Shown here: in pieces, positions 19,983-54,756 of the stretch
How the letters are laid out: the number at the start of each line of letters is the position of its first letter
How positions within the stretch are numbered: position 1 is the stretch's first letter
Source of the DNA: Synechococcus sp. RCC307
GTDB lineage: Bacteria > Cyanobacteriota > Cyanobacteriia > PCC-6307 > Cyanobiaceae
Length of the DNA stretch: 64,000 bases
Assembly: GCA_000063525.1 (NCBI GenBank)
Contig: CT978603.1
Location: forward strand, 181,105 to 245,104
Reading direction: 5' to 3'
Made by a program: the position numbers and the translations under genes
The notes under the pieces: model-generated
Databases searched by the model: none
What the model saw: the letters and a program-made list of their open reading frames with translations, nothing else
Told to the model about the DNA's origin: nothing

Positions 19983-20812
19983 ATATATTTTCATCACTGT
20001 TGCTTTTTGCTTATTTATTTCTTCCGAACTCACCTACACAATCGGTTTCCTCAACTCCTCCAGTAAAGTTTGGGATATGGGGTGTAGATAAGATTAGCCC
20101 CTCTAAAGAAAAGGATTTATTTTGTCAATTGAAAAAAGATAATTTTGACTTTATTCAGTCATACTCTTCTTTCAAGACTCATAGCTTTAAACGTTTAGAG
20201 GGTTTATTGGAAAATATTCAAGAATGTCGTATTAATGCCATCTTAGCCATCCAACCTTTTAGGAAGAATATTTTAGTGAACCCTGTTTTTAATTCAAAAC
20301 TGCAATTACTATCGCTCTATTCTCGCAATGTCCTTGTTCAAATTGCAGATGAACCTCGCAGCAAAAATCAAGTGAGATTCCTTCCGAAAATCTGTCGGCA
20401 TATAGAGAAATTTTCCCTTGATGCTCATTTGCAAGAAGGTGTCAATCCGACAATTCTACAGTGTGTTACTCAAAATGGCTTGCATTCACACCGCAAGCGG
20501 CCCAATATTAACCCTAGTCTCAAACAAATAGCTCTAAATTCACACAAACTGAGAAGGAGCCGAAAAGATATTGTTTACACGATGCGAATGTTTAATTCTG
20601 AGAATCAAAACAACTTCGTTAATGTTACTTATGAGGACGCAAAGAACGAGCTTTGCTATGTTCTTCAAAACATCAAGCCTAATAAGATTGCTTTTTATAC
20701 CTATAATAAGCGCTATAAAGGTGCAGGCATGATGCAAGATCCAGGCCTTTATAAAATAGCCACTCAGCTTGTGCTAAAATATAAAAATAACAAACTTATT
20801 TGCCAGAAATGA
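19979..20812 (+). CDS. Secreted protein of unknown function, possible TIM-barrel hydrolase-like fold
   Basis: A 277-residue protein with a signal-peptide-like N terminus (short start, hydrophobic LLLFAYLFLP, then polar residues). The mature part opens with VKFGIWGVDKISPSKEKD. It contains FDFIQSYSSF, INAILAIQPF and VLVQIADEPRS, an alternation of short hydrophobic strands and helices reminiscent of glycoside-hydrolase barrels in which a strand-end acid follows such an ADEP segment. I do not recognise the family. It overlaps sulfotransferases on both sides (ATGA junctions), so it is translated with them and may process or bind the sulfated glycan outside the membrane. Confidence 0.65.
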   Translation: MNIFSSLLLFAYLFLPNSPTQSVSSTPPVKFGIWGVDKISPSKEKDLFCQLKKDNFDFIQSYSSFKTHSFKRLEGLLENIQECRINAILAIQPFRKNILVNPVFNSKLQLLSLYSRNVLVQIADEPRSKNQVRFLPKICRHIEKFSLDAHLQEGVNPTILQCVTQNGLHSHRKRPNINPSLKQIALNSHKLRRSRKDIVYTMRMFNSENQNNFVNVTYEDAKNELCYVLQNIKPNKIAFYTYNKRYKGAGMMQDPGLYKIATQLVLKYKNNKLICQK

Positions 20813-21513
20813 TTGTTTTACAGCATTTAAGTATTGTTTTTGTTCATATACCAAAAAACGCTGGTTCTTACGTCAAGAGATCCCTTAAGTCAAATAATAA
20901 TGTTCTACGTAACCAGTTCTTTTTGGGTTTATGTTCCTCTTCTTTATCTCGCATTCAGGCGAACATCTTCAATACGCCCTCCTCGTTCACGCTGATCCAA
21001 AAGAAGGATCCCTATTCGCAGCTTAGAGCTGTTAACAGAGCTAAAAATGGACACGCGTCTTCTTCAGATTTCATACTTTATACACCTATTGTGAAACCCC
21101 AAACCTATTTGTTTGTATGGCGTGACCCGATTGCCCGCCTAGTTTCCTTTTATAATTTTGTACGTTCAAAGCCCCGGCACTATTTGTATCAATACTCGAT
21201 TCAAAGTAAAAACATATTTACCTTTTATAATCAAATGTACTCTTGTTTTGGGAGAATTAAACTCGAGTCACAATATTCAATGATCAAAGGTGCACTTAAT
21301 TCTCCTTCTTCGAAGCTTATTGCGTTGCGTCAACATTCGCTTTCCACTGATTTGTATAAGCTTCATCTTTTATACCCTGACCTACAAGTAAACTTACCTA
21401 CCAATGAAGTTAATCAGTCGCCAGTGAATACTCCTTACACGTCTGACATAGGCAATATAGGGGACTTTTGCCCAGAAGATATGCTTTTTGATCCTTCTCC
21501 CTATTATATTTAA
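20809..21513 (+). CDS. Sulfotransferase-like protein (3 of 5)
   Basis: A 234-residue protein. SIVFVHIPKNAGSYVKRSL near the N terminus is the Sulfotransfer_2-type loop (FVHIPKxAG). FVWRDPIARLVSFYNFVRS near residue 105 is a clean 3'-phosphate motif with Arg and Ser in place. The frame stays open to a TTG at 20800, but ATG 20809 makes an ATGA overlap with the previous stop and puts the loop at the usual distance from the start. Short for the family, lacking a long C-terminal tail. Of the five, this is among the most convincing by motif. Confidence 0.85.
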   Translation: MIVLQHLSIVFVHIPKNAGSYVKRSLKSNNNVLRNQFFLGLCSSSLSRIQANIFNTPSSFTLIQKKDPYSQLRAVNRAKNGHASSSDFILYTPIVKPQTYLFVWRDPIARLVSFYNFVRSKPRHYLYQYSIQSKNIFTFYNQMYSCFGRIKLESQYSMIKGALNSPSSKLIALRQHSLSTDLYKLHLLYPDLQVNLPTNEVNQSPVNTPYTSDIGNIGDFCPEDMLFDPSPYYI

Positions 21514-21515
21514 AT

Positions 21516-22784
21516 ATGTTAGTTCTATTTACTTTGTGCCTGTTTCAAGCTACTAGGTGGTTTGGCATTGAGAGAAGTATATTCTACATTTTAACATGCA
21601 TTCTTTTAGCACTTTTGATCGGCTTAATAGGTAAATATTCCATCACCAAACAGTCTACCCTGGCATTCTTATTAATTGCAACCTTTTCTTTGCCTGCAAT
21701 TATTAATTTTGCTCTTATACCAACTGTAAGTCTTTCACAGGCCCTTTTACCCTTTGTCGGCTTTCTTAAAGTCTTTCTACTTCTTCTTCTTCTTTCTAGC
21801 TTGCCTTTAACTACATCAATAAATTTTATCCACAGATTCATGCTATTCGCAACCTCATATGGATTTTTGCAGTGGATTATTTCATCACTTGGTTTCGCAC
21901 AAAGGGCGAGTTTGATCGATTCGCATTATGAAATAGTTGGGTTTTTCCCTATCTGGCGAGTGAATTCACTGTGGGGTGAAAGTCAGCATTTTTCCCAAGT
22001 ACTCGTCTTTTATCTTTTATTTTGCTTCGTCGAGAGTTCTCTTTTAAACCCCACCGAAAATATATCAAGAAAATTTGGCATTTATCTCTCCCTTTTTATG
22101 TTGGCAACAAGTGGCAGTACAACAGGTTATTTCTTAAGTCTTTTTGTCATTACTTCTCATCTTATCTTGTCTTTGACTAAACCTTTTTTGAGCAACTTAC
22201 CCTTAAGTTACTCTTCACTCCACTCCCCACTGACATCATTAAAAAAGATTTTCCATTTCATCCTTCGAAAGCAATATTTCTTTTTGTTATTGACAGTTTT
22301 TTTTGCTTTTACTGTATTTGTGTCCACTTCTGATGCTCTTCTTCGTCAGTTTGCAAAGCAATCTAGTAGAGCGAGTCTAGTTGCTTCTTTTATATTGGAT
22401 ACAAATAATCTATCAACTGGTTCTAGTGGCTGGGACTCTGGTACTCGTGCTCAATCTTTAATTCGCGCCAAAGATTATTTATCGAATCCTTCTAAGCTTC
22501 CACAATATTCTCCTGAGCTTGCCACAAAATCCAAAGATGGGTTTTTACTTAACTTTGTCAGGTTTGGATTTATTGGTTCTTTCATGGTTACTATCTCACT
22601 TTTAATAGTATGTTATATATATAATTTTGACCCTTTAATGTCGTTGGGATTCCTCGCTTTAGTCTTAATATTTTGGTTTCGCGGTGAAACAATTAATGCT
22701 ACATCTTTTCAATTTGGCTTGGTTCTCTCTCTTTTCATGCTCTCATTCAAATATGGCAATTCTCGTGTTCCAGCTAGAAACTAA
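21516..22784 (+). CDS. Wzy-like polysaccharide polymerase / O-antigen ligase family membrane protein
   Basis: A 422-residue, very hydrophobic protein with about ten predicted membrane helices and a larger loop between about residues 275 and 345 (containing SSGWDSGTRAQSLIRA). That layout, many helices plus one large late periplasmic loop, fits Wzy/WaaL-type proteins, whose sequence is otherwise poorly conserved. The SxxxDSGTRxxSxxxA pattern in the loop resembles the Arg-bearing loop of O-antigen polymerases. It would join lipid-linked repeat units on the periplasmic side. It starts 2 bases after the preceding sulfotransferase stop. Confidence 0.78.
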   Translation: MLVLFTLCLFQATRWFGIERSIFYILTCILLALLIGLIGKYSITKQSTLAFLLIATFSLPAIINFALIPTVSLSQALLPFVGFLKVFLLLLLLSSLPLTTSINFIHRFMLFATSYGFLQWIISSLGFAQRASLIDSHYEIVGFFPIWRVNSLWGESQHFSQVLVFYLLFCFVESSLLNPTENISRKFGIYLSLFMLATSGSTTGYFLSLFVITSHLILSLTKPFLSNLPLSYSSLHSPLTSLKKIFHFILRKQYFFLLLTVFFAFTVFVSTSDALLRQFAKQSSRASLVASFILDTNNLSTGSSGWDSGTRAQSLIRAKDYLSNPSKLPQYSPELATKSKDGFLLNFVRFGFIGSFMVTISLLIVCYIYNFDPLMSLGFLALVLIFWFRGETINATSFQFGLVLSLFMLSFKYGNSRVPARN

Positions 22785-22787
22785 TTT

Positions 22788-23735
22788 ATGACCGTTTCAT
22801 TAATCACTGGCTGTCATCGTTCTGGGTCCACATGGCTTGGTAAAACTATTTGTTATGCTTCAAACTCTATCTACTTTTGGGAGCCTTTCAATTTAAACTC
22901 GCCTCAATTGTATAAATCTTTAATCTCTAGTTCCTTGAACAATAACAAATATTGGTATCCTTTCCTTCCATCTACTCATCAATTTTGGCCTGATTTGATT
23001 CGTGTTTGCAGCAAGCGTCGTCTTTTGTATTCTAATATCTCCTTTTCTGATTTTTTTGCTGATAGTCCAAAGCGTACTCTTTTTGCGCTTAAAAAAGCTG
23101 TGGCGCTGCAGTTTTCTTTGCTCACTGGTGGAAATATTGTTATTAAAGATCCTTTGATGCTATTTTCAGTTGAACCTGCGCTTGAGTCATCTGCTGTAGA
23201 TAACGTTGTAATTTTAACTCGAGACCCTAGAGCCTTCTACACCAGCGTGAAAAAAGCAAATTGGGCTTTTGATTTTTCACACCTTCTTCCTGTTACAAGC
23301 ACTTATCCACATTTATTTAAGTATCACAACTTAGTGACTCACAAGTCAATTCAGGGTTCGTTACTTGATCTCGAATCTGTCTCCCTGCTTTGGAACATCT
23401 TGCATGAGCATATTTTGTATCTCTCCAATTTATCCCTAGTGACATTATTTAAATACGAAGACATTTGTGCTGATCCCGAATCTTTTTTCCCTTCTATCGC
23501 ACAGTCGCTTTTTGGAAACGATTTCACTTTTAATCAAGAAGCATTCTCAGCGTATCTTCTAGGCTTGAAGGATCAGCCCTCCACTCCTGAAGATAAAAAG
23601 GGAGTGCAAATGGTTAGACGTGGTGAGTCCAAGGCTATTTCTAAGCTTTGGCTTAATCGTATTTCGGAAACTGAATCACTCTCGATATATAATAGCTGCC
23701 ATAAGTTGATGAACTTTTTTGGCTATAGTCGATGA
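22788..23735 (+). CDS. Sulfotransferase-like protein (4 of 5)
   Basis: A 315-residue protein, the longest of the five. LITGCHRSGSTWLGKTI at residues 5-21 is the 5'-phosphosulfate loop, followed by YFWEPFN, common in glycan sulfotransferases. VILTRDPRAFYTSVKKA near residue 145 is the 3'-phosphate motif with RDP and Ser. LVTLFKYEDICADPESFFP is the usual C-terminal RYEDL-like element. All the landmark motifs of a PAPS-dependent carbohydrate sulfotransferase are present. ATGA overlap with the next gene. Confidence 0.88.
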   Translation: MTVSLITGCHRSGSTWLGKTICYASNSIYFWEPFNLNSPQLYKSLISSSLNNNKYWYPFLPSTHQFWPDLIRVCSKRRLLYSNISFSDFFADSPKRTLFALKKAVALQFSLLTGGNIVIKDPLMLFSVEPALESSAVDNVVILTRDPRAFYTSVKKANWAFDFSHLLPVTSTYPHLFKYHNLVTHKSIQGSLLDLESVSLLWNILHEHILYLSNLSLVTLFKYEDICADPESFFPSIAQSLFGNDFTFNQEAFSAYLLGLKDQPSTPEDKKGVQMVRRGESKAISKLWLNRISETESLSIYNSCHKLMNFFGYSR

Positions 23736-24499
23736 CAGCTACCCTTTTTCTTTGTTGTCCATCTTTGAGCTTCTCAGGGAGCACAGCTCGTACAGCTAAT
23801 TCATTTAACCGTCTAAAAAACCTTCTTAGTGTGTTTGATATTTCAGTCAAAACACTCTTTCTTTCTTCTGATCAGAATGATCTTGCTTCTGCTGAGGCGC
23901 ACTCATACTTCGACTATATATTTTTTTCTCCATGTGAAGGAGTTTATGCAGCTTTCAATGCAGCCATCAAAAAATCCCTCAGTCTTTCTGCTGATTGGAT
24001 ATGGCTTTTGGGAGAAGGAGATACAATTTTATGTGAACGTCTAGACTTGTCTATTTTGTCCCAAAATCTTTCCTTGGGATCGCATATATTGATGATGAAC
24101 ATGTTCGTGGGTGATAGAAAACTAAGGTGCAAACTAAAAGAAGCTTTCCCATCTCCGTTGTTTAGTCTTGATACAATGAGATTTAACCATCCTGCATCTA
24201 TTATTTCTGCAAATGCTTATTCTATCAATGGCTTGTACTCACTTGATTATAAGGTTGTCTCTGACTATTATTGGTTGCACAAGGCTTGTGCTGCCAATCT
24301 ATCGATTACCCATTTGCCTTTTGTATCCGTCTACCATGAATTAGGTGGCATTTCTACCTCCTCAGGTAAATCGCGTTTTTTCGAGCATTATCAATGTTTG
24401 CTTGCTTTAAACAGAGTATATGGTTTTTCCTTTTCTGTTTTCTTTGCGCTCATTTTTCGTTTAACAAGGTGTCTTGTTTCTAGTTTTTTCGCTAAATGA
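23732..24499 (+). CDS. Glycosyltransferase family 2, WcaE-like
   Basis: A 255-residue protein. SPCEGVYAAFNAAIKKSLS near residue 70 followed by WIWLLGEGD parallels the (K/E)G(I/V)YDAMNKGI...LNAGD signature of WcaE/colanic-type GT2 enzymes; GEGD would be the metal-binding position. The N-terminal strand is atypical (MTATLFLCCPSLSFSGS), with no obvious VxxPxYN start. The gene overlaps both neighbours by 4 bp. Rich in Ser, Phe and Leu like the rest of this T-rich sub-block. Confidence 0.75.
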   Translation: MTATLFLCCPSLSFSGSTARTANSFNRLKNLLSVFDISVKTLFLSSDQNDLASAEAHSYFDYIFFSPCEGVYAAFNAAIKKSLSLSADWIWLLGEGDTILCERLDLSILSQNLSLGSHILMMNMFVGDRKLRCKLKEAFPSPLFSLDTMRFNHPASIISANAYSINGLYSLDYKVVSDYYWLHKACAANLSITHLPFVSVYHELGGISTSSGKSRFFEHYQCLLALNRVYGFSFSVFFALIFRLTRCLVSSFFAK

Positions 24500-25566
24500 C
24501 TAAATATTCATTTGTTATCCTGACATGTTCTTCCCCATGGCATGGGCGAGGTGGCGCCTCACGTGTCATATCTTCTTATATAGATTTTTATACTCGAAAA
24601 AAAGTGCCTCTGAAGATATGTTTGTTCCATTTTATGCATAAATATCGCCTTTTTCGCGTACTACCTTCTCTCAAATCATTATTTTATGCCTTAACCCTGC
24701 TATTTTGTAGGCAGCCCTATGCCATACATCATCATCATACTTCTTTGTATGATCTAGGATTTTTGTTCTTATTTAAACTATTTTCCTTTTCTGGCCGCGA
24801 CCGTATTGCTATAACCTTACACAATCCTAAACATTTTGTTGAATCGTCTTCCTTGTTTAGAACTTTTCATTTTTCTCTTGTTAGGTTTTGTGCCAAGCAC
24901 TTACATTTTTTAAATTCTCAAGATCAGTCAACCTTTACCCGTAATCACTTCCTTTGTCTTCCCATTTTCGATTGTGTTTCAGTTGTAAGCTCCAATCCTC
25001 TTTCTAATCGCTCTTTAATTGAGCTTCGTCTGTTACTGGATTCCGACACATATTGTTTGACGGATGCTGACATTTATCTCGGTGTCATGGCTGTTTTGAG
25101 GCCTGGCAAGAGAATTGACTTGTGTATTAAAGCTCTAGTCCAATTGCCACCAACCTTTAAACTCTTGATTGCGGGAGAAGGCTCCGACATGCAAATTCTT
25201 ATTAAATTAGTCCAATCGTTAAATCTCAGCGATAGAGTTCAATTTTTGGGGTGGCTTGACGACGACCAAAAGCCTTGCTTTTTTAGTCAAGTTGATCTTT
25301 TCCTTAATGCTTCTCAATTTGACACTCAATCACTTGTTTTTCTTGAGTCATTGACTCACTCGACTCCTGTCATATCCGTGCCAAATCCCATTTTCTTGGA
25401 AATATATCCTCCTTCCCCGTGTATTTATTACTCCTCTGCTTTTACCGTTGAGGCTTTTTCTAAGGCTGTCCAATCTGCGGCTCATTCGGTCTTTAGTTTT
25501 TCGCAAACAGCAAATACACTTCTGGAGCGAGATTCTGTTAAGGTTTTCCCATTTCCTTGTCGTTAG
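24496..25566 (+). CDS. Glycosyltransferase family 4
   Basis: A 356-residue GT-B protein. The N terminus has HGRGGASRVISSYIDFY, a glycine-rich acceptor loop. The C-terminal domain has VMAVLRPGKRIDLCIKAL, then LLIAGEGSDMQILIKLV, FLGWLDD and a final FDTQSLVFLESLTHSTPVIS segment in which FDTQSLVFLE stands for the E-x7-E motif with one Glu replaced. That change leaves some doubt about the catalytic details. It likely extends the glycan repeat unit. Confidence 0.82.
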   Translation: MTKYSFVILTCSSPWHGRGGASRVISSYIDFYTRKKVPLKICLFHFMHKYRLFRVLPSLKSLFYALTLLFCRQPYAIHHHHTSLYDLGFLFLFKLFSFSGRDRIAITLHNPKHFVESSSLFRTFHFSLVRFCAKHLHFLNSQDQSTFTRNHFLCLPIFDCVSVVSSNPLSNRSLIELRLLLDSDTYCLTDADIYLGVMAVLRPGKRIDLCIKALVQLPPTFKLLIAGEGSDMQILIKLVQSLNLSDRVQFLGWLDDDQKPCFFSQVDLFLNASQFDTQSLVFLESLTHSTPVISVPNPIFLEIYPPSPCIYYSSAFTVEAFSKAVQSAAHSVFSFSQTANTLLERDSVKVFPFPCR

Positions 25567-25569
25567 GTT

Positions 25570-26268
25570 GTGGCTTTTGCTAGGCGTTCATCTCTGATCA
25601 CCTCTGTCAAGCTTCTGGATAGAATTAATGCGTCTATTTCTTATCCTAATCTTCTGAAGCTTGATGAGTCCAGGGCGATTGTGGATATCCCCAAGTCTGG
25701 TTCAAGTTTTCTGAAATCATTTCTCATATCCTCGGGTCAAGCTCGCATTTCCATATCACCTGATCTCCCACATACTGCTGTCTTCTCCAGAATACCTCGA
25801 CTGACATTTTTGAGTGCTTTTTCAATTCATGCTTTTTTGAGAGACCCTATCGAAAGATTTTGTTCTGTTGTGCGCGAGAAAATTGTCTTTAACTCCCATT
25901 ATCGTTCTGGTTGGTCTCCTTACCTTCTGTCTTTTGGTAAAAATGTTTACTCTTTGAATGACGTTGACAAAATGATATCGGACTTTGTGAATGCCCCCCT
26001 TTCAGTACTTGATAAGCACATCCGACCCCAATCATTTTTTCTTGCACCCTATTTTTCTTCCTCTCGATTTTCTCTAGCCAATTCCTCCTCTATTCGTCCA
26101 TTTTTGATTGACTGCGGCTTCAAGCCTGACACCTTTGCTTCTGAGGCAGTTTCTCTGGTCACTGATCGTACATTATTTCAACCTACTGATTTGTCTTTAA
26201 AGTCCCTTGACCTGTTAAGGCTTTTTTACCGTTCTGATTACGAACTTATGGATATAATCGGTTTTTAG
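25570..26268 (+). CDS. Sulfotransferase-like protein (5 of 5)
   Basis: A 232-residue protein starting at GTG 25570, 3 bases after the previous stop. AIVDIPKSGSSFLKSFLIS (about residues 36-54) is the phosphosulfate loop (PKSGSS), and AFLRDPIERFCSVVREK near residue 95 is the 3'-phosphate motif with RDP and Ser. IRPQSFFLAPY near residue 155 matches the HxxPQ region of Sulfotransfer_2 proteins. Start choice is uncertain because no ATG lies near; TTG 25568 is out of frame. Confidence 0.8.
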   Translation: MAFARRSSLITSVKLLDRINASISYPNLLKLDESRAIVDIPKSGSSFLKSFLISSGQARISISPDLPHTAVFSRIPRLTFLSAFSIHAFLRDPIERFCSVVREKIVFNSHYRSGWSPYLLSFGKNVYSLNDVDKMISDFVNAPLSVLDKHIRPQSFFLAPYFSSSRFSLANSSSIRPFLIDCGFKPDTFASEAVSLVTDRTLFQPTDLSLKSLDLLRLFYRSDYELMDIIGF

Positions 26269-26278
26269 CCAAATTTTG

Positions 26279-27475
26279 ATGAAGGTCCTGGTCCTTGGTG
26301 GTGACGGCTTTTGCGGCTGGCCATGCGCCGTGAATTTGGCCGATCAGGGCCACGACGTTCTGATCGTTGACAACCTCAGCCGCCGCAAGATCGACATCGA
26401 TCTGGAGGTGGAATCCCTAACCCCAATCACCAACATTGGTGAGCGCCTCAAGGCCTGGAGTGAGATCGGCGGCAAACCGATGCGCTTTGTCCACCTGGAC
26501 ATCGCCCATGAGTACCAGCGGCTCCTGGATCTGCTTCTCGAGGAGAAGCCCGACTCGGTGGTGCATTTCGCCGAGCAACGCGCTGCCCCCTATTCGATGA
26601 AGAGCAGCGCCACCAAGCGCTACACCGTCGATAACAACGTCAACGGCACCCACAACCTGCTGGCCGCCATCGTTGAAAGTGGCCTCGATATTCACGTGGT
26701 GCACCTCGGCACCATGGGGGTCTACGGCTATGGCTCCCACCGCGGCGCCACCATCCCCGAGGGCTACCTGAAGGTGGAAGTGCCACAGCCCGATGGCAGC
26801 CGTTTTGAGGAGGAGATCCTCCACCCCGCCAGCCCGGGCAGCGTCTATCACATGACCAAGACGCTGGATCAGCTGCTCTTCCTCTACTACAACAAAAACG
26901 ATCAGGTCCGCATCACCGATCTGCACCAGGGCATCGTTTGGGGCACCAACACTGAAGCCACCGACCGCGATCCACGCTTGACCAATCGCTTTGATTACGA
27001 CGGCGACTACGGCACGGTCTTGAACCGCTTCTTGATGCAGGCGGCCATTGGCTACCCCCTGACCGTGCATGGCACCGGCGGCCAGACCCGCGCCTTCATC
27101 CACATCCGCGACTCGGTGCGCTGCGTGCAGCTGGCCTTGGACAACCCTCCGGTCAAAGGCGAGCGGGTCAAGATCTTCAACCAGATGACCGAAAGCCATC
27201 AGGTGGGAGAACTGGCCAAGAAGGTGGCCGCACTTACCGGCGCGCAGGTCAACAACCTGCCCAATCCCCGCAATGAAGCGGTGGAAAACGATCTGATCGT
27301 GGACAACCGCTGCTTCATTGAGCTGGGCCTCAATCCCACAACCCTCGATGATGGGTTGCTGAAGGAAGTGGTGGAGATCGCCACCCGTTATGCCGACCGC
27401 TGCGACCGCAACCGGATCCTCTGCACGTCTGCCTGGACCAAAACCCAAGAACAGGCCATTCGTGCAGGCTCATGA
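26279..27475 (+). CDS. sqdB: UDP-sulfoquinovose synthase
   Basis: A 398-residue enzyme that combines UDP-glucose and sulfite into UDP-sulfoquinovose, the head-group donor of the thylakoid lipid SQDG. Diagnostic parts are VLGGDGFCGWPCAVNL (NAD fold), GTMGVYGYG, YHMTKTLDQLLF (the YxxxK pair) and TDLHQGIVWG. ATG 26279 starts the protein at the family's usual MKVLVLGGDG. The gene is clearly GC-rich while both neighbours are AT-rich, so its codon use belongs to the chromosome backbone. The usual partner sqdX is not found in this window. A long open frame on the opposite strand is a by-product of its GC3 bias. Confidence 0.96.
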   Translation: MKVLVLGGDGFCGWPCAVNLADQGHDVLIVDNLSRRKIDIDLEVESLTPITNIGERLKAWSEIGGKPMRFVHLDIAHEYQRLLDLLLEEKPDSVVHFAEQRAAPYSMKSSATKRYTVDNNVNGTHNLLAAIVESGLDIHVVHLGTMGVYGYGSHRGATIPEGYLKVEVPQPDGSRFEEEILHPASPGSVYHMTKTLDQLLFLYYNKNDQVRITDLHQGIVWGTNTEATDRDPRLTNRFDYDGDYGTVLNRFLMQAAIGYPLTVHGTGGQTRAFIHIRDSVRCVQLALDNPPVKGERVKIFNQMTESHQVGELAKKVAALTGAQVNNLPNPRNEAVENDLIVDNRCFIELGLNPTTLDDGLLKEVVEIATRYADRCDRNRILCTSAWTKTQEQAIRAGS

Positions 27476-27515: not shown

Positions 27516-28343
27516 GTGACCAGTTCTAATCAACCTCTGGTAAGCATAATTATTCCCTGCTTTAATTGTGCTTCCACTGTTCTTGAAAGCCTCCAAAGCG
27601 TTCAAAGTCAAACTTTTTCAAACTTTCAGTGCATAATTGTTGATGATTGCTCGACCGATCAGACTCAAGCATTGGTTATGAGCTTTATAGAAGGCGATTC
27701 TCGTTTTAGGTATTTAATTACGCAATCAAATCAGGGTGTTTCTTCTGCTAGGAATCTTGCTCTTGATAACTGTTCTTCTCAATACATTGCCTTCCTAGAC
27801 TCTGATGATCTTTGGCATCCAGAATTCTTGACCCTTGCACTTGATTATATGTCTACCAATTCCGCAAGATTCGTGTATTCACCAGTTTTGAGATTTATTG
27901 ATAATGCAAAGAGAACCGGCTTTGTTAAAGTGCCTCCGTTCCGTGTTTCTCTGAGTTCGCTTCTCACTAATAATCATATACCATTAGTCACGGCAGTCTT
28001 CGATGCGTCTTTACTTTCCCCAAGTTTAAGATTTACTCCTCAACGCCCCGAAGACTATATTTTTTGGATTCAACTATTTACTCTTAATCCTAGCCTTGAG
28101 GGTTTCCGTTTCTCTAACTTACCACTTGGTTTTTATCGCGTCTCTCCTAAGCAAAGGTCTTCTAATAAGATTATAAATATTAAAAGAGCCTATTATGTTT
28201 ACCGATCCGTTTGGCACTTTGGGTATGTAAAGTCTCTTTTTATGACCTTGGTTTATGTAGCTAATAGTTTGCTTGACTATATTTTCCAGTTTTCTGCTCC
28301 TCGTAATTTCCCATCTTCAGTTTTTCTTGGCCCGAACTCGTGA
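27516..28343 (+). CDS. Glycosyltransferase family 2
   Basis: A 275-residue GT2 starting at GTG 27516. It has a canonical GT-A start (VSIIIPCFNCASTVLESLQS), IVDDCSTDQT near residue 40, FLDSDDLWHPEFL near residue 93 (DxD-type metal site), and RPEDYIFWIQLF near residue 185 (catalytic ED). It is AT- and T-rich like the genes before sqdB, so the glycan block resumes here. Its last codons overlap the next gene's GTG by 4 bp. Confidence 0.88.
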   Translation: MTSSNQPLVSIIIPCFNCASTVLESLQSVQSQTFSNFQCIIVDDCSTDQTQALVMSFIEGDSRFRYLITQSNQGVSSARNLALDNCSSQYIAFLDSDDLWHPEFLTLALDYMSTNSARFVYSPVLRFIDNAKRTGFVKVPPFRVSLSSLLTNNHIPLVTAVFDASLLSPSLRFTPQRPEDYIFWIQLFTLNPSLEGFRFSNLPLGFYRVSPKQRSSNKIINIKRAYYVYRSVWHFGYVKSLFMTLVYVANSLLDYIFQFSAPRNFPSSVFLGPNS

Positions 28344-29302
28344 AAGTTGCAATTACAGGCTCGTCAGGATTTGTTGGGTCTAACCTTGTTTCCTCTTTTA
28401 TTGCCAATTCAATAGACTTTATTTGTATTGATCGTTTCCCCTTAGATCCACTTGTTGTTTCTCGCCCTTGTCAGTTCTTCGTTGACTATGCTGATATAAC
28501 CCGCTTAGTCAATCTCCTTAAAGATGTTGACTGTGTTGTGCACCTTGCTGGTCGTGCTCATAAGCCTGTGCAAAATGATGAGTCTGCTTTCCAGGAATTC
28601 AAGCAGGCTAATGTTGAAGTACTTGCATGCGTTGTCAAAGCATCTCAAGCCGTCAGTGTTAAGCGTATTATTTATGTTAGTTCCATTGGCGTTCTTGGGT
28701 CCAATACTCCGAATACACCTTTCACAGATTTCACTTCGCCTTCCCCTTCTGCTTTGTATGGTCATTCTAAATTAGAAGCAGAAAGATTTTTAGTTTCTTA
28801 TCTTTCTAATGATTTTTCTATTGATTGGGTCATTTTGCGTCCCCCTTTGATTTACGGGCCGAATTGTCCCGGCAATATGTCAAGGCTTTTACGAATTTTG
28901 CCATACCTTCCTTTGATTCCTTTTGCTAGTTTAAGTTCTCAAAAGTCTTTCATGTCTATAGATAATTTCATTGACATACTGAATCTCTGCCTGTCTTCCT
29001 CAGTTGTTTCGAGAAAAACCTTTGTTGTTTCAGATAATGATGACATTTCTGTGGGCGATCTGTTTGCTGTGCTTCTTAGTGGGTTGCGTATTTCCTCCCG
29101 CAGATTAGTTCCCTTTCCCCCTGCCATACTTGCGCTTGTTATGCGTATTTTTGGACTTAGCGCGCTCTGGCAACAAATTAGTTCCCCGCTAGTCATTGAT
29201 TCTTCAAATTTCTCTTCGTCAACAGGATGGTTTCCGAGATTTTCCTCTCGAAATCAGCTCTATGTAACAGCCCGCTCATTCTTGCGCAACAAGAAATATT
29301 AA
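28340..29302 (+). CDS. WbpV/TviC-like NAD-dependent sugar-nucleotide epimerase/reductase
   Basis: A 320-residue extended SDR with GSSGFVGSNLVSSF (NAD binding), HLAGRAHKP, YVSSIGVLGS (catalytic Ser) and YGHSKLEAERFL (YxxxK). ILRPPLIYGPNCPGNMSRLL and the SDNDDISV segment match the WbpV/FnlA-related group. Members of that group act on UDP-4-keto or UDP-HexNAc sugars just before the initiating sugar-phosphate transferase (QuiNAc or FucNAc type). A WbpL-like transferase is indeed present at 51032-51973, though not adjacent. It is the last gene of the plus-strand glycan block, with a GTGA overlap at its start. Confidence 0.8.
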   Translation: MKVAITGSSGFVGSNLVSSFIANSIDFICIDRFPLDPLVVSRPCQFFVDYADITRLVNLLKDVDCVVHLAGRAHKPVQNDESAFQEFKQANVEVLACVVKASQAVSVKRIIYVSSIGVLGSNTPNTPFTDFTSPSPSALYGHSKLEAERFLVSYLSNDFSIDWVILRPPLIYGPNCPGNMSRLLRILPYLPLIPFASLSSQKSFMSIDNFIDILNLCLSSSVVSRKTFVVSDNDDISVGDLFAVLLSGLRISSRRLVPFPPAILALVMRIFGLSALWQQISSPLVIDSSNFSSSTGWFPRFSSRNQLYVTARSFLRNKKY

Positions 29303-29313
29303 ATTCTGCAGGT

Positions 29314-29343
29314 AAATAAAGCCTAGGTATCTTAACTTTATTT
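29314..29343. terminator. AT-rich inverted repeat between convergent glycan and psbEFLJ operons
   Basis: AAATAAAG (29314-29321) pairs perfectly with CTTTATTT (29336-29343) around a 14-base loop, 12 bases beyond the epimerase stop. The gap lies between convergent transcription units, so a two-way terminator is plausible. The 8-base palindrome TTGCGCAA occurs at 29282-29289 and again at 29342-29349. The stem is weak because it is AT-rich. Confidence 0.35.
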
Positions 29344-29408
29344 GCGCAATATATTTATTCGTTTGTTTGTTTTGGTGTTCGATTGGTGTTGCCTTCAATT
29401 ATATCTGC

Positions 29409-29609
29409 TTAAGCTGAACCAACACCAACGTAAGACCCATAGAAGAAGAGACCCACAACAAACATCACGGCCATTCCACCTGCTGTAGCGACCAGCCAGA
29501 GGGGTAGAGGGCCTTCAGTCCAACGGCTTTTCCAGGGCACGGCCGGCGTGCCATCAGGATTGCGATCCGGTACCCGTCCGTCGGGAAGACCTGATTTCTT
29601 TCCACTCAT
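29409..29609 (-). CDS. psbJ: Photosystem II protein J
   Basis: A 66-residue single-helix membrane protein of the PSII core, ending [14 protein letters not shown], the conserved PsbJ C terminus. The N-terminal soluble part ([20 protein letters not shown]) is longer than in plant PsbJ, as in other picocyanobacteria. It is the last gene of psbEFLJ. It helps electron flow at the QA/QB side and PSII assembly. Confidence 0.97.
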
Positions 29610-29620
29610 GTCTTAAAGCC

Positions 29621-29740
29621 TCAGTTGAAGAAGTAGCTCGAGAAGAGCACGCCAGTGACAAAGACCAGCAACAAGCCCAGATACAGGCTGGTGCGGTTGA
29701 GTTCAACCGGCAGGTTGTTGGGGTTGGGGTTGCGGTCCAT
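29621..29740 (-). CDS. psbL: Photosystem II protein L
   Basis: A 39-residue single-helix protein read directly from the minus strand: [20 protein letters not shown] at the start, then a hydrophobic helix ending [10 protein letters not shown]. This is a near-invariant PsbL. It lies between psbF and psbJ with 11-bp gaps on both sides. PsbL sits at the PSII dimer interface near QA. Confidence 0.97.
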
Positions 29741-29751
29741 GGTTCAGAGAA

Positions 29752-29889
29752 TTAGCGACGAACGAACTGCATGGCCGCCAGAGCGCCCAAGAAAAACACC
29801 GTTGGAATGCCGAGGGCGTGAAGCGATAGCCACCGCACCGTGAAGATCGGATAGTTGCGGGGTGTTGCGGGTGAAGGAGTGGAAGTCAT
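29752..29889 (-). CDS. psbF: Cytochrome b559 subunit beta
   Basis: A 45-residue single-helix protein: a polar N terminus ([20 protein letters not shown]), the heme-ligand histidine in [12 protein letters not shown], and the C terminus AAMQFVRR. All match PsbF. It pairs with PsbE to bind the b559 heme in the PSII core. It lies 6 bp downstream of psbE. Confidence 0.97.
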
Positions 29890-29895
29890 AACGGA

Positions 29896-30147
29896 TCAGT
29901 TTTTAAGACGGGTGTCCAGTTGCGACTTGCCCTCATAACGCTGGCTCACCACAGGCGCCTTGACGTCAGCGGCTTGGAAGTAGCTGTCAGGACGCGGAGT
30001 CCCGAAGGCGTCGTAAGCCAGCCCAGTGCTGACGAAGAGGAACCCAGCCAGGAAGATCGCAGGCAAGGTCACTGCATGGATCACCCAATAGCGGATGCTC
30101 GTAATGATTTCGAAGAACGGACGTTCCCCGGTTGAGCCGGCGGCCAT
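29896..30147 (-). CDS. psbE: Cytochrome b559 subunit alpha
   Basis: An 83-residue protein. [17 protein letters not shown] carries the axial heme histidine within the single membrane helix, and GTPRPDSYF follows on the lumenal side. First gene of psbEFLJ on the minus strand, 72 bp downstream of ycf48, so the two may share a transcript started upstream of rubA. PsbE is essential for PSII assembly. Confidence 0.97.
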
Positions 30148-30219
30148 CGCAACTCCCAGTTCAGCTCGGTGATCCTAAGGGGTCAGCCCCACTGCTTGAG
30201 GCTTCAGTTACAGAGAATG

Positions 30220-31215
30220 TCAGCCCACCCAACGCAGAATCGCGCCGCGCTCTCCCAAGGCAAAGGCTTTATTGCCGCCCAAGAACACAAACCGAGTGAA
30301 ATTGCTCGGCGTGGCTGTCCCCACAGGATCTTTTTCCCACTCCTTGCCGCCATCGCTGCTGACCAGCAGGGTTCCATTGCCGCCGCCAGCCCAGATGTTG
30401 CCTTGGGGATCCCAAGCCATATCCAGGTATCCATAGCCATTGGTGATGGGGATCACTGGCTTGCTCCACTCCTCGTAGTCGCCGCCTTCAGGGTTGAAGC
30501 GCAGTTGGGCCCCGCGAGTCACCATCCACATTTGTCCATCGGGCTGGTATCCCATGCTCTGCAGCCGCTGGCTGCTCACCCGTTGGTGCACCTGCCAATT
30601 GGATTGGCCTGGATCCCAGGTGGAGAAGAAGTTGCCAAGGCTGCTGACGCTCACGTAGCGCCCGTCATCCCCGCGCCTTAGATCACGAACGGAACCAGCT
30701 GCATCAACCACTTCCGCTTGCCAGCTCTTGCCGGCATCGCTGCTTTGGTAAATAGCGCCGACGTTGGTTGCCAGTTCAGCTTTCTTGGAGCCGAGCGCAG
30801 TGATTAGGTAGGGATCTCCGGGCAGCTTGGTGTCTAGCAGCAAGCGGCTCCAGCTTTGGCCAGCGTCATCGCTGTGCAGGAGGAGGCCAGGCTGACCGGC
30901 AATCCAGCCTTCATCACCGTTGAAATCGATGCTGATCAAACGAAAGTTTTCATCAGCCGGCAGGTCAATCTCCCGTTCCTCCCAGGTCTCGCCACCGTCG
31001 CTCGTTTCCATCACCAATCGGTTGCTCCCCACCAAAAATCCGTGGGACTCATTGGTAAAGGCCACATCCAATGGATTGGATTCAATTCCTAGCTTTTGGG
31101 AGTTCCAGGGGCTGGCTGCTGCCATCGGCAGGCTGGTGGTGACACAACCGCCAAGGCCAAACGTCAGGCCGACACACAGCAGCAGAGAGAGGAAAGAGCG
31201 AATCACAGGTATCAA
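30220..31215 (-). CDS. ycf48: Photosystem II assembly factor Ycf48 (HCF136 homolog)
   Basis: A 331-residue lipoprotein. The N-terminal hydrophobic segment ends in the lipobox LGGC, followed by a seven-bladed propeller of BNR-like repeats seen as SDGGETWEER, SDDAGQSWSR, SDAGKSWQAE and SDGGKEWEKD. Ycf48 binds newly made D1 in the lumen during PSII assembly and repair. The start is either TTG 31215, overlapping the rubA stop as TTGA, or GTG 31206; no ATG is near. Sits in the conserved rubA-ycf48-psbEFLJ order. Confidence 0.95.
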   Translation of the reverse strand: MIPVIRSFLSLLLCVGLTFGLGGCVTTSLPMAAASPWNSQKLGIESNPLDVAFTNESHGFLVGSNRLVMETSDGGETWEEREIDLPADENFRLISIDFNGDEGWIAGQPGLLLHSDDAGQSWSRLLLDTKLPGDPYLITALGSKKAELATNVGAIYQSSDAGKSWQAEVVDAAGSVRDLRRGDDGRYVSVSSLGNFFSTWDPGQSNWQVHQRVSSQRLQSMGYQPDGQMWMVTRGAQLRFNPEGGDYEEWSKPVIPITNGYGYLDMAWDPQGNIWAGGGNGTLLVSSDGGKEWEKDPVGTATPSNFTRFVFLGGNKAFALGERGAILRWVG

Positions 31216-49395: not shown

Positions 49396-50859
49396 TCAGC
49401 TCAGCTTCGGTGCAGAACGCAACGGCAAGTAAGGAGCCGTCAGAGCCTTCATCGATGACTCATCCCGTGCCACCACCTGCTCAATCGTCGCCCGGTAGCT
49501 GTCGGTGACCAGCTTCGGGTAGAGGCCAATGCCAATGATCGGCACCAGCAGGCAGGAAATGATGTAGATCTCCCGTGGCTCAGCGTCCACCAAATTTGCG
49601 TCGGAAAGCTCGGGTTTCTCCTGGCCAAAGAAGATCTCCCTGAGCATCGAGAGCAGATAGATCGGCGTGAGGATCACTCCGATGGCCGCAGCGCCATCAA
49701 TCACGATGCGGAAGGGCAGGGTATAGGCGTCGTCGGTGGCGAAGCCCACAAACACCATCAGCTCCGAGACAAAGCCGCTCATGCCAGGCAGAGCCAGCGA
49801 GGCCAGCGAGCAGGCGGTCCACATGGCAAACATCTTGCGCATGCGTTGACCGACCCCGCCCATCTCATCGAGCTGCAGGGTGTGGGTGCGGTCGTAGGTG
49901 GCCCCCACCAGGAAAAACAGACTGGCTCCGATTAAGCCATGGCTGATCATCTGCAACATGGCGCCACTGGCGGCCAAGGGCGAGAAGCTGCCGATGCCGA
50001 TCAGCACAAAGCCCATGTGGCTGATGGAGCTGTAGGCGATTTTGCGTTTGAGGTTGCGCTGCGCAAACGAGGTGAGCGCCGCATAAATGATGTTCACAAC
50101 CCCCAGCACCACCAGAAGCGGTGCGAACTGCACATGGGCGTCGGGGAACATCGACGCGTTGAAGCGGAACAAGGCGTAGCCGCCCATCTTCAGCAAGATG
50201 CCGGCCAGCAACATGTGCACTGGTGCTGTGGCTTCCCCGTGGGCATCGGGGAGCCACGTGTGCAGCGGCACGATCGGCAACTTCACGCCGAAAGCAATCA
50301 GCAAGCCCGCATAACAAAGGGCCTGGAACCCTGCTCCGAGATGCTTAGCCGCTAAATCGGAGTACTCAAAGCTGACAGGTCCGCCGCCGCTGAAGGCCAT
50401 GGCGAGGGCCACCAGCAGGATGAACAGGGAGCTGACGGCTGTGTAGAGGATGAATTTGGTGGCCGCATATTGGCGCTTTTTGCCGCCCCAAATGGCCAGT
50501 AAGAGATAGACGGGGATCAGCTCCAGTTCCCAGGCCAGGAAGAACAGCAGCATGTCCTGCACGGCGAACACGGCGATCTGACCGCCGTCCATGGCCAAGA
50601 GCAGGAAAAAAAACAGCCGTGGCTTGAACGTCACTGGCCATGCCGCTAAGCAGGCCAACGTGGTGATGAAGCTGGTGAGCAGGATCAGAGGCATCGAGAG
50701 GCCATCGGCTCCCACCGACCAGCCCAAACCCAGATCGGGCACCCAGGGAATCACCTGCCGCAATTGCAGCCCAGCGATATCAGGGTCGTAGCCATTGAGA
50801 TAGGCGCCAACCGTGATCAGAAAGGTGGTTAGCGAAACGCCGAGGGCGTACCAGCGCAC
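49396..50859 (-). CDS. ndhD: NDH-1 subunit 4 (NdhD1-type); true start further upstream
   Basis: The antiporter-like subunit of NDH-1, about 14 helices in full. [20 protein letters not shown] carries the key Glu, and [20 protein letters not shown] is the family signature. The listed start, GTG 50859, is the first conventional start codon, but the reading frame continues upstream through an obvious helix ([20 protein letters not shown]). That helix is the expected first one of NdhD. From 50860 back to the in-frame TAG near 51071 there is no in-frame ATG, GTG or TTG; CTG 50955 or ATT 50988 are the candidates. Confidence 0.93.
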
Positions 50860-51031
50860 CCCTTTGCCGTTTCCAGGATCTGGAACCAGAGGGATGGCCA
50901 GGGAGGCGGCGATCGGCAGCAGGATGGCCGTCGTCAGCCAGGGAAAGGAATCCAGTTCCTTTGCGGCATCTGGCTGGAGTGTAGAAATTTCAGCCGCAGC
51001 TGCCAGCTGTGCGTCGCCTTTGACACACAGT

Positions 51032-51973
51032 TCAGGCGAAAGGAACGGCTTCCTTCTGATCGAGCCAGAGCCCTAGGCCGATCACGGCCACGGCACCGAC
51101 CAGGACCCCGCCCAGTCCTATTGATAACTGCAAGACAGCCAGAACTGCTGTGGCGCCCACATACAGCCCGGCAACGTTTTGATGAGGCCAACCGGCTTGA
51201 TGCAGCCGTTGAAACAGATGCAGTCGGTGGGCCTGAAAAATCCGTTGCCCAGCCGCTGCCCTGCGAATTACGCAAAGGCAGGCATCAGCCAGCAGTGGTG
51301 TTGCCAAAAGGAGCAGCGCGAGGGCTTGTGGCCAAGTGCCGGCTTGCAACACCATCCCAGCGAAAACAGCGCCAAGAAACGTGCTGCCTACATCGCCCAT
51401 GAACACCTTGGCTGGGGCCCAGTTCCAAATCAGGAATCCGGCCAGAGCGCCCACCAGTGGCCAGAGGCCAGTCGCCCCATTGATGGCGATTGCACCAAGG
51501 CTGATGGTCATACAGCCAGCTACAAGCCCATCCAGCCCATCGGTGAAATTCACGAAGTTGATGACCGCGGTCACGGCAATCACCACTAGTGGCCCACAAA
51601 GCCATGGCCATAGCGGGGTGGGTAGGGCTGTTGGCAGCAGCAGGGCGATGGCGGTGAGGATCTGGATGCCGTAGCGCAGCAGTGCTGGCAGGTTGAGTCG
51701 GTCATCCAGCAAGCCCACCACCGCTAAAGGCGCGCAAATCCAGGGGATCCATAACGCCGGTGAGGGCCCTGCGAGCAGCAGCAAGCTGTTGAACAGCAAG
51801 GTGATCAGCACAAACGCCATGCCACCACCACGTGGTGTGGGCTTGCTATGTGCGCTGCGTTCGTTGGGTTGATCCAGTAGCCGCTGTTGCAGTTGCGGGA
51901 TCAGCACACCCAGCAACTTCCAGCAGGCAGCACAGGCTGCAGCCGCAGCAAGAAGATTCAGCAGCCCGTTCAC
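51032..51973 (-). CDS. WbpL/WecA-like polyprenyl-phosphate sugar-1-phosphate transferase
   Basis: A 313-residue membrane enzyme of the MraY/WecA family with about ten helices. [20 protein letters not shown] near residue 35 is the WbpL-type cytoplasmic loop 1, [15 protein letters not shown] holds the catalytic Asp, [13 protein letters not shown] is the magnesium site and [13 protein letters not shown] the substrate loop. It would load GlcNAc, QuiNAc or FucNAc phosphate onto a lipid carrier to start a glycan. It lies between ndhF and ndhD, one base after the ndhF stop on the same strand. Confidence 0.9.
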
Positions 51974-51974
51974 C

Positions 51975-53972
51975 TCACCCCAACGCGCCGAAGATCACCA
52001 CAAGGCCAATCACCCCGCCAAACACGATCAAGGCATAGAACTGCGCGCGGCCGGTCTCGAAGTATTTGAGACCTTCGCCGCTGCCCAGGGTCACAAGGCC
52101 CGTCAGGTTGACCACCCCATCCACCACCTTGGAATCCACCTGCAAGACCTGACGCGCCAGCTTGCGGCTGCCTTGCACGAACAGCTTGTCGTTCAGAGCA
52201 TCGAGGTACCACTTGTTGGCAAAGAAGGCGTTGATCGCAGGGAAGCGTCCGGCCACGGCAGTGCCGAGATCCACCTTGCGCAAGGCGTAGGCCGCGGTGG
52301 CCAGGCCAATGCCGGCAACCGAAATCGCCACCGAAGCACCAGCGAGGGGCAGGAATTCCTCCCAGCTGAAGTGTTCGGCCATCTCCAGCGCTTCGGCTGG
52401 ATTGAGCAAACCGGCAAACCGGTTGTTCCAGGGGGTGCCCAACAGACCGATCAGAACTGATGGCACCGCCAGCAACATCAATGGCACCGTCATCGGCCAG
52501 GCCGATTCATGGGGGCTACTGGCATGGCCATGGACCGTCTCATCGCCTTTGCCGGCCGCGGCGAGCAGTTGCTGCTGCACAGCACTGTCGGTACCCCGGA
52601 ACTCGCCTTCAAAGGTGAGGAAGTAGAGCCGGAACATATAGAAGGCGGTCATGCCGGCGGTGAGAAAGCCCACGGCCCACAGCAGCGGGAAGCTGCCAAA
52701 GGCTTGCCCCAGGATCTCGTCCTTGCTCCAAAAACCGGCCAATGGCGGGATGCCGCTGATGGCCACACAACCGATGAAGAAGGTGCTGGCGGTGATGGGC
52801 ATCTTTTTGCGCAAGCCCCCCATCAAGCGCATGTCTTGCGCCAAGACCGGTTCGTGCCCCACCACCTCTTCCATGGCGTGGATCACGGAGCCGGAATCCA
52901 GGAACAGCATCGCCTTGAAGAAGGCATGGGTGACCAGGTGGAACATGCCGGCCACCGGTGCTCCGCAGCCCATGGCCAGCATCATGTAACCCAGCTGAGA
53001 CACGGTGCTGTAGGCAAGCCCTTTCTTGAGATCCATCTGCGTCAGCGCGATGGAGGCACCCAAGAAGCAGGTGATGGTGCCCACCACGGCAATCACGGTG
53101 AGCACTTGCGGGAAAAGGTTGTAGAGCGGCTCAAGTCGCGCCACCAAGAACACGCCAGCAGCCACCATCGTGGCGGCGTGGATCAGCGCTGAAATCGGAG
53201 TGGGACCCTCCATGGCATCGGGAAGCCACACGTGCAGAGGGAACTGCGCTGATTTGGCCATCGGGCCCATAAACACAAACAGGCAGAGAGCCACAGCGGC
53301 CCAGCCCGCTACTTGGCCATCAGCCATGGCGGTGCTGAGGCCTGTGGCCATGCCTTCGAAATCAAAGGTTCCGGTGGCCCAGAACAAACCAAGGATTCCC
53401 AGGAGCAAACCGAAGTCACCAACGCGGTTCACCACAAACGCTTTTTGGGCGGCATGGGCGGCACCATCGCGGTCGTACCAGAAGCCCACCAGCAGGTAGG
53501 AGCACATGCCCACCAGCTCCCAGAAGACATAGATCTCCAGCAGGTTGGGGCTCACAATCAGCCCCAGCATTGAGCTGCTGAACAGAGCCAGGTAGGTGAA
53601 AAAGCGCACATAGCCCTTGTCGTGGGCCATGTAGCCGTGGGAATACACCATCACCAGCAGGGCGATGGTGGTGACGAGCGCCAGCATCACCGCCCCAAGC
53701 GGGTCAACGCAGAAGCCCATCTGCAGGTTGAACGTGCCAGCGCTGGCCCAGGTGAACAGCTGCTCGTAGGGCGCGGCCCCATTGAGTTGCTCCAGCAGCA
53801 CCCCATAGCTCAGGACTGCTGAGCCGCCCACGCAGCTAATCAGCAACGCCGCAACGGGTGTTCGCAGCCGGTTCAGCGTGCGGTTGAAGCTGATCAGCCC
53901 CAAGCCCACCAGGGTTGCCCCCACCAAGGGGAGCAACGGGATCAGCCAGGCAACCTCGGCCGCTGAAGGCAT
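51975..53972 (-). CDS. ndhF: NDH-1 subunit 5 (NdhF1-type)
   Basis: A 665-residue membrane subunit, the distal antiporter-like part of NDH-1. ATG 53972 gives MPSAAEVAWLIPLLPLVGA; the frame is open to TTG 53981. MVYSHGYMAHDKGYVRFFTY and FWELVGMCSYLLVGFWYDRD are family signatures, and WLPDAMEGPTPISALIHAAT is the conserved core. The C-terminal lateral helix is present. Divergent from the rbcR-like gene with the Z-ISO candidate between. Upstream of a glycan gene rather than directly of ndhD. Confidence 0.96.
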   Translation of the reverse strand: MPSAAEVAWLIPLLPLVGATLVGLGLISFNRTLNRLRTPVAALLISCVGGSAVLSYGVLLEQLNGAAPYEQLFTWASAGTFNLQMGFCVDPLGAVMLALVTTIALLVMVYSHGYMAHDKGYVRFFTYLALFSSSMLGLIVSPNLLEIYVFWELVGMCSYLLVGFWYDRDGAAHAAQKAFVVNRVGDFGLLLGILGLFWATGTFDFEGMATGLSTAMADGQVAGWAAVALCLFVFMGPMAKSAQFPLHVWLPDAMEGPTPISALIHAATMVAAGVFLVARLEPLYNLFPQVLTVIAVVGTITCFLGASIALTQMDLKKGLAYSTVSQLGYMMLAMGCGAPVAGMFHLVTHAFFKAMLFLDSGSVIHAMEEVVGHEPVLAQDMRLMGGLRKKMPITASTFFIGCVAISGIPPLAGFWSKDEILGQAFGSFPLLWAVGFLTAGMTAFYMFRLYFLTFEGEFRGTDSAVQQQLLAAAGKGDETVHGHASSPHESAWPMTVPLMLLAVPSVLIGLLGTPWNNRFAGLLNPAEALEMAEHFSWEEFLPLAGASVAISVAGIGLATAAYALRKVDLGTAVAGRFPAINAFFANKWYLDALNDKLFVQGSRKLARQVLQVDSKVVDGVVNLTGLVTLGSGEGLKYFETGRAQFYALIVFGGVIGLVVIFGALG

Positions 53973-54006
53973 GGAAAACAATTCGATTTCTGGAGTGTAG
54001 GCAGCG

Positions 54007-54756
54007 TCAAGCCATCAGCCCGTACGCGCCATCAAGCCAGTGTGCAAAACCTGTTCGAGCAAAGCTGGTGGCTGCCACCCCAATCCATTGGTGGGCCCAC
54101 CAAAAAACGCCAACGGCAATGGCAATGCCCAGCTGGGCTGGCCTCACAAATTCACGCCAGGGCAGTGGTTGGCGGCCATCGAGCACGGCCACAAAAGGAA
54201 TGAGTGAGGTGTTGGCCTTGAGCTCATCAAAGGCTTCGCCAAACCGGTTGTGCTGTCGCCGATCACCATTCCAGACCGCAAATAGGTGATGGCCAATCAG
54301 CCCGACGCAGGTCACCACCATGAAGCTGCTGCCGATCCAGAGCAGATGGGTGGCGCACCACAGGATTTGACCCACCGCTTGGGGGTGACGGCTGACGCGA
54401 ATGATGCCGGTGGCATACATCCGCACTTGCGGCTTCAGCACCGCCGGGATCTCCAGCAGGTTGTAGGTGGCCGGGTAGAGGAACAGAAAGCTGACGGCTG
54501 TTCCGATCCACACCAGCGGAATGATCCAGGGCTGATCCTGCAGATTCCAGAGCCGCAGCCCGTCGTAGCGGTGTTCCAGGAAATAGGCGATCACCACCAC
54601 GGCGGCGGGGATGCTCACCGCGGCAAAGAGCAGCCGCCAGGCTCGCTCGCCAATCTTTTCGGCTCCCCAAGCCCGCAGTGAGGCCCCACCGCTGTGCAGC
54701 ACGGCAAAGCCGATCAGCAGGATCAGCATCACGACACTGCTGTGGTGCATCTGCAT
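54007..54756 (-). CDS. 15-cis-zeta-carotene isomerase candidate (NnrU/Z-ISO family)
   Basis: A 249-residue membrane protein with about six helices, NnrU superfamily. The segments RVSRHPQAVGQILWCATHLL and LFAVWNGDRRQHNRFGEAFD, then SLIPFVAVLDGRQPLP, match my recollection of plant Z-ISO. The histidines in HPQ and GHHLF would bind its heme. Z-ISO isomerises the 15-cis bond of zeta-carotene between the two desaturases. The nearby crtP and crtB support a carotenoid role. Identification is by motif memory, so some doubt remains; the general name NnrU-domain protein is safe. Confidence 0.72.
   Translation of the reverse strand: MQMHHSSVVMLILLIGFAVLHSGGASLRAWGAEKIGERAWRLLFAAVSIPAAVVVIAYFLEHRYDGLRLWNLQDQPWIIPLVWIGTAVSFLFLYPATYNLLEIPAVLKPQVRMYATGIIRVSRHPQAVGQILWCATHLLWIGSSFMVVTCVGLIGHHLFAVWNGDRRQHNRFGEAFDELKANTSLIPFVAVLDGRQPLPWREFVRPAQLGIAIAVGVFWWAHQWIGVAATSFARTGFAHWLDGAYGLMA

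Follow-up and report, generated by a model that had tools for sequence, protein, structure and literature searches.

A WbpL-like initiating transferase gene inserted between ndhF and ndhD in Synechococcus sp. RCC307

The transferase and its closest relatives

In the O-antigen cluster of Pseudomonas aeruginosa, the gene of the initiating transferase WbpL stands between two partner genes, in the order wbpV-wbpL-wbpM. Within the 64,000-nucleotide stretch of the Synechococcus sp. RCC307 genome analysed here (the window, to which all positions refer unless otherwise stated), a gene for a wbpL-like polyprenyl-phosphate HexNAc-1-phosphate transferase (PNPT, Glycos_transf_4) of 313 amino acids was found at 51032..51973 on the minus strand. 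Its 942-bp reading frame is intact from a GTG start at 51971-51973, and the predicted protein passed the Pfam gathering cut-off of 27 for Glycos_transf_4 (PF00953; E 6e-29, 101.5 bits). The motifs of PNPT enzymes are complete (DD at 90-91, NFxNFxDGxDGL at 139-150, KxFMGD at 189-194 and HRLHLFQRL at 249-257), and the key residues (D90, D91, NFxNFxDGxDGL, KxFMGD, HxxH) are invariant in an alignment across 10 homologues. Judged by this conservation, a reading frame of such length is not a product of chance.

WecA and MraY belong to the same superfamily, with weak matches to the protein. Both identities were rejected, the scores being far under the curated cut-offs (76.9 bits against 326 for the WecA profile TIGR02380; 64.5 bits against 192 for the MraY profile TIGR00445); indeed, no NCBIfam equivalog cut-off was reached in the profile search. 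The RCC307 genome contains two further PF00953 genes. The likeness to WbpL/WbcO-type O-antigen enzymes lies in the family, the full set of PNPT motifs, the HRLHLFQR loop motif and the place of the gene in relatives, where an SDR gene and a WbpM-like gene flank it; as regards P. aeruginosa, this is a likeness by description only, and the RCC307 gene differs in standing alone between ndhF and ndhD. Orthologues in polysaccharide islands of other Cyanobiaceae (L100, L101, L102) are colinear over the whole length, with 59-62% identity in pairwise BLAST. They differ in their genomic place, and several picocyanobacterial relatives extend a few residues beyond the VPFA that ends the RCC307 protein.

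Homologues at E <= 1e-24 were found in 67 of 251 Cyanobiaceae genomes, and only distant ones in a plasmid search. None was found in five genomes of the same genus; these are incomplete MAGs (74-92% complete), so that the absence of wbpL and wbpM from them is weak evidence. The usual neighbourhood was counted in 28 non-redundant loci with a length of 6 kb or more and an identity of 48% or more. In 21 of them, a WbpM homologue came next downstream, within 700 nt; one of three SDR types came next upstream in 20, and both were present in 15. This context in relatives backs the WbpL-like name given in the initial annotation. The SDR (WbpV-like)-wbpL-wbpM neighbourhood is not found at the RCC307 transferase locus, both partners being elsewhere in the genome. 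Among 84 loci with homologues, with flanks of 1.5 kb in many cases and longer in others, ndhF or ndhD lay within the fetched flanks only at RCC307's own locus (L001, L058). This is a known enzyme family at an unusual address, a one-gene rearrangement and not a new kind of system.

An insertion between ndhF and ndhD

Read along the minus strand, the genes in turn are an NnrU-family gene (54007..54756), ndhF (51975..53981), the transferase gene, ndhD (49396..50955), a LapA-domain gene and a gene that we read as ScpA-like. NdhF (NdhF1, NF005626, 1226 bits) and NdhD (NF002713, 931 bits) are both firmly identified. The ndhF stop codon occupies 51975-51977, and the single base 51974 separates it from the transferase GTG; a start one base past ndhF, on the strand shared by all three genes, had indeed been claimed from the outset and is confirmed by these coordinates. 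The transferase had also been said to end where the ndhD coding region begins. Its end at 51032 is close by, but the likely ndhD start lies near 50955, about 76 nt away. The program-listed ndhD reading frame (487 aa, from 50859) is too short, because the same frame encodes, further upstream, a conserved FPWL N-terminus. Since no ATG, GTG or TTG precedes this N-terminus in frame (50940-51000, minus strand), CTG at 50953-50955 (M-DSFPWLTT...) is the likely start codon of ndhD. The CTG start is common to five other genomes (G003, G001, G122, G141 and G098), and G063 has an ATG two codons earlier.

The NdhF C-terminus and NdhD were searched in the 251 Cyanobiaceae genomes, and the distance between the aligned parts could be taken, among the matches listed, in 129 genomes where the two share a contig and a strand. 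The median distance was 172 nt (quartiles 150-203), against 992 in RCC307. In two genomes of the same genus (G003 and G001), about 65 nt separate the aligned coding regions, on single contigs, and the flanks compared match those of RCC307 (NnrU, LapA, ScpA, nucleotidyltransferase and metF-like genes). Distances in other Cyanobiaceae were 56-428 nt, with few exceptions. G003, G001 and other relatives lack the transferase in this interval, and its position is therefore not conserved across picocyanobacteria. The insertion is real and clean, as the initial annotation had proposed against an ancestral arrangement. A literature search returned no paper describing an ndhF-wbpL-ndhD junction.

The insertion left in place a two-part element, TGTGTG(T/A)CA...ATTTCTACACTCC (50976-51029, minus strand), which lies upstream of ndhD in many Cyanobiaceae, with variants in distant relatives. 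In RCC307 it begins 2 nt after the transferase stop with its distal half, TGTGTGTCAAA (51019..51029, minus strand), and ends upstream of ndhD with its proximal half, TTTCTACACTCC (50976..50987, minus strand), in which TACACT resembles a -10 box. CTGGCA-N17-TACACT can be read by eye in RCC307 and G003, with TACACT at a fixed place; a strict sigma-70 promoter scan made no call at the element. In its sequence, it resembles a promoter with an upstream site for ndhD. Such an element bears on the proposal that the transferase is co-transcribed with NDH-1 genes. For ndhF the proposal is plausible, in line with the 1-nt gap, and the two genes are likely to share a transcript, of which the NnrU-family gene, directly upstream of ndhF, is the probable first gene. 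Co-transcription with ndhD is doubtful, because the promoter-like element past the transferase stop belongs to ndhD in relatives; ndhD would thus have a promoter of its own.

The glycan island and the origin of the gene

A WbpV-like SDR gene (28340..29302, plus strand) stands at the end of an AT-rich glycan island that reaches into the window, about 22 kb from wbpL; to the eye, this end adjoins psb, ycf48 and ndhC-K-J genes. The WbpM homologue lies on the other side of the island (genome positions 170579-172513, 10.5 kb before the window, which itself covers 181105-245104) and is followed by a Bac_transf initiating transferase. The initial annotation had presented the WbpV-like gene as lacking a neighbouring transferase and the ndhF-linked gene as its complement. 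The former statement needs a caveat, as the Bac_transf enzyme is in the same island, beside WbpM. The pairing itself is supported by a near relative (G098, locus L209; NdhD 87% identical), in which a 343-aa SDR, 40% identical to the RCC307 WbpV-like protein, lies about 90 nt before wbpL. Since the transferase gene is also closely preceded by a WbpV-like gene in three further loci (L151, L153 and L219), such a pairing is reasonable for RCC307. The L209 wbpL is 51-67% identical to the RCC307 transferase, in pieces; its middle part, including the NFxNFxDGxDG motif, is missing in the assembly (L209 1163-1879), and this copy may be broken or misassembled.

No decayed wbpL or wbpM was found beside the WbpV-like gene of RCC307 (29303-30220), where small genes and spacer have the look of a psb cluster by eye, and an SDR101-type partner is absent from the genome (best E 0.003). 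In G014, the wbpM-wbpL cluster likewise lies beside a ycf48 homologue, which suggests that it occupies the same island site as the RCC307 genes. The island has other features of its own: an epimerase-family gene, sqdB-like by eye (26276-27475), has a GC3 of 79.5% among measured island genes of 31-34%, and three sulfotransferase-like genes lie at 20800-26268, one of which (22788-23735) matched weakly, below the Pfam cut-off.

As to origin, the transferase gene has a GC of 60.2% and a GC3 of 64%, and the RCC307 WbpM gene 56% and 60%, respectively; GC3 is 78-79% in ndhD and ndhF and 31-34% in young island genes. In the protein tree (54 rows), the transferase falls inside the picocyanobacterial wbpL clade (99% SH-aLRT), with no single sister branch. 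RCC307 WbpM, too, forms a branch standing alone inside a picocyanobacterial clade. GC3 and tree fit an old picocyanobacterial gene that moved; the alternative is an old import straight into the ndhF-ndhD site. As it singles out no nearest relative, the tree is compatible with relocation as well as import.

A probable displaced initiating enzyme and the meaning of its place

We consider it probable, with good though not full confidence, that RCC307 carries a wbpL-type initiating transferase displaced from its glycan unit and read after nnrU-ndhF, the ndhD promoter being kept. The enzyme would load a HexNAc-1-phosphate, the predicted substrate, onto undecaprenyl phosphate. The sugar may be QuiNAc- or FucNAc-like, made via the WbpM-like dehydratase and the WbpV-like reductase, and the loaded carrier would start the repeat unit of an O-antigen or exopolysaccharide. 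From the SDR-wbpL-wbpM unit usual in relatives, wbpL would have been relocated out of the island about 22 kb away, or imported separately, so that it now stands by itself, with ndhF on one side and the ndhD promoter region on the other, as the putative last gene of the nnrU-ndhF transcript.

That the junction occurs in one genome only could point to an assembly artefact. The RCC307 assembly is, however, a single contig of 2,224,914 bp, 99.97% complete, with clean junctions and both flanking genes intact, in line with its description as a complete genome (2.22 Mb, 60.8% G+C, CT978603, subcluster 5.3; PMC2441476), and an artefact is thus extremely improbable. Why the place was kept is a separate matter. 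The interval may simply tolerate insertions past the ndhF stop and ahead of the ndhD promoter, wbpL being there by chance and without regulatory meaning; this seems to us rather likely, and it is compatible with the displaced-transferase explanation, as it concerns only the keeping of the place. Indeed, 6 of the 129 genomes have at least 655 nt between the aligned genes, with varied content. Besides RCC307, these are G257, in which a gene for a group 1 glycosyltransferase is accompanied by a YdjC gene on the same strand (L096 2013-4136), an independent insertion of glycan genes; G081, whose 3.9-kb interval includes a gene resembling Uma2 nuclease alongside other reading frames (L095 1750-5429); G260, with a 185-aa reading frame to which no family was assigned; and G241 and G240, in whose long intervals no convincing gene was seen. 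In RCC307, the insertion damaged neither of the two ndh genes, nor the ndhD element. A chance landing is harder to reconcile with the 1-nt ndhF junction, which looks fitted for coupled translation.

The same junction, on a common strand, would favour selection for the place, expression with ndhF tying the initiation of surface glycan synthesis to NDH-1 or to carbon or redox status. A divergent LysR gene, presumably similar to the carbon-fixation regulator RbcR, adjoins nnrU-ndhF, and the same-strand glycan genes of G257 would also fit. We nevertheless regard such coupling as unlikely: this transferase is in the interval of one genome only, ndhD keeps its own element, and the inserts in G081 and G260 are non-glycan. 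Moreover, ATTARNNNNNYTAAT, which we take to be the RbcR-type site motif, was not found in the ndhF upstream region, and its matches across the window were at chance level. A broader idea, with RCC307 and G257 as independent cases, is that picocyanobacteria park genes of glycan initiation or modification in this interval to let surface glycan output track NDH-1 expression. We regard it as very unlikely, and any link of glycan synthesis with electron transport is a guess.

For annotation purposes, the partner so far missing for the RCC307 WbpV-like and WbpM-like genes is likely to be this transferase, and the stretch from ndhF to the ndhD promoter region appears as a tolerated insertion site. 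From a biological point of view, an initiating transferase uncoupled from the island could keep initiation stable through exchanges of the island and could be expressed in step with a housekeeping ndh gene.
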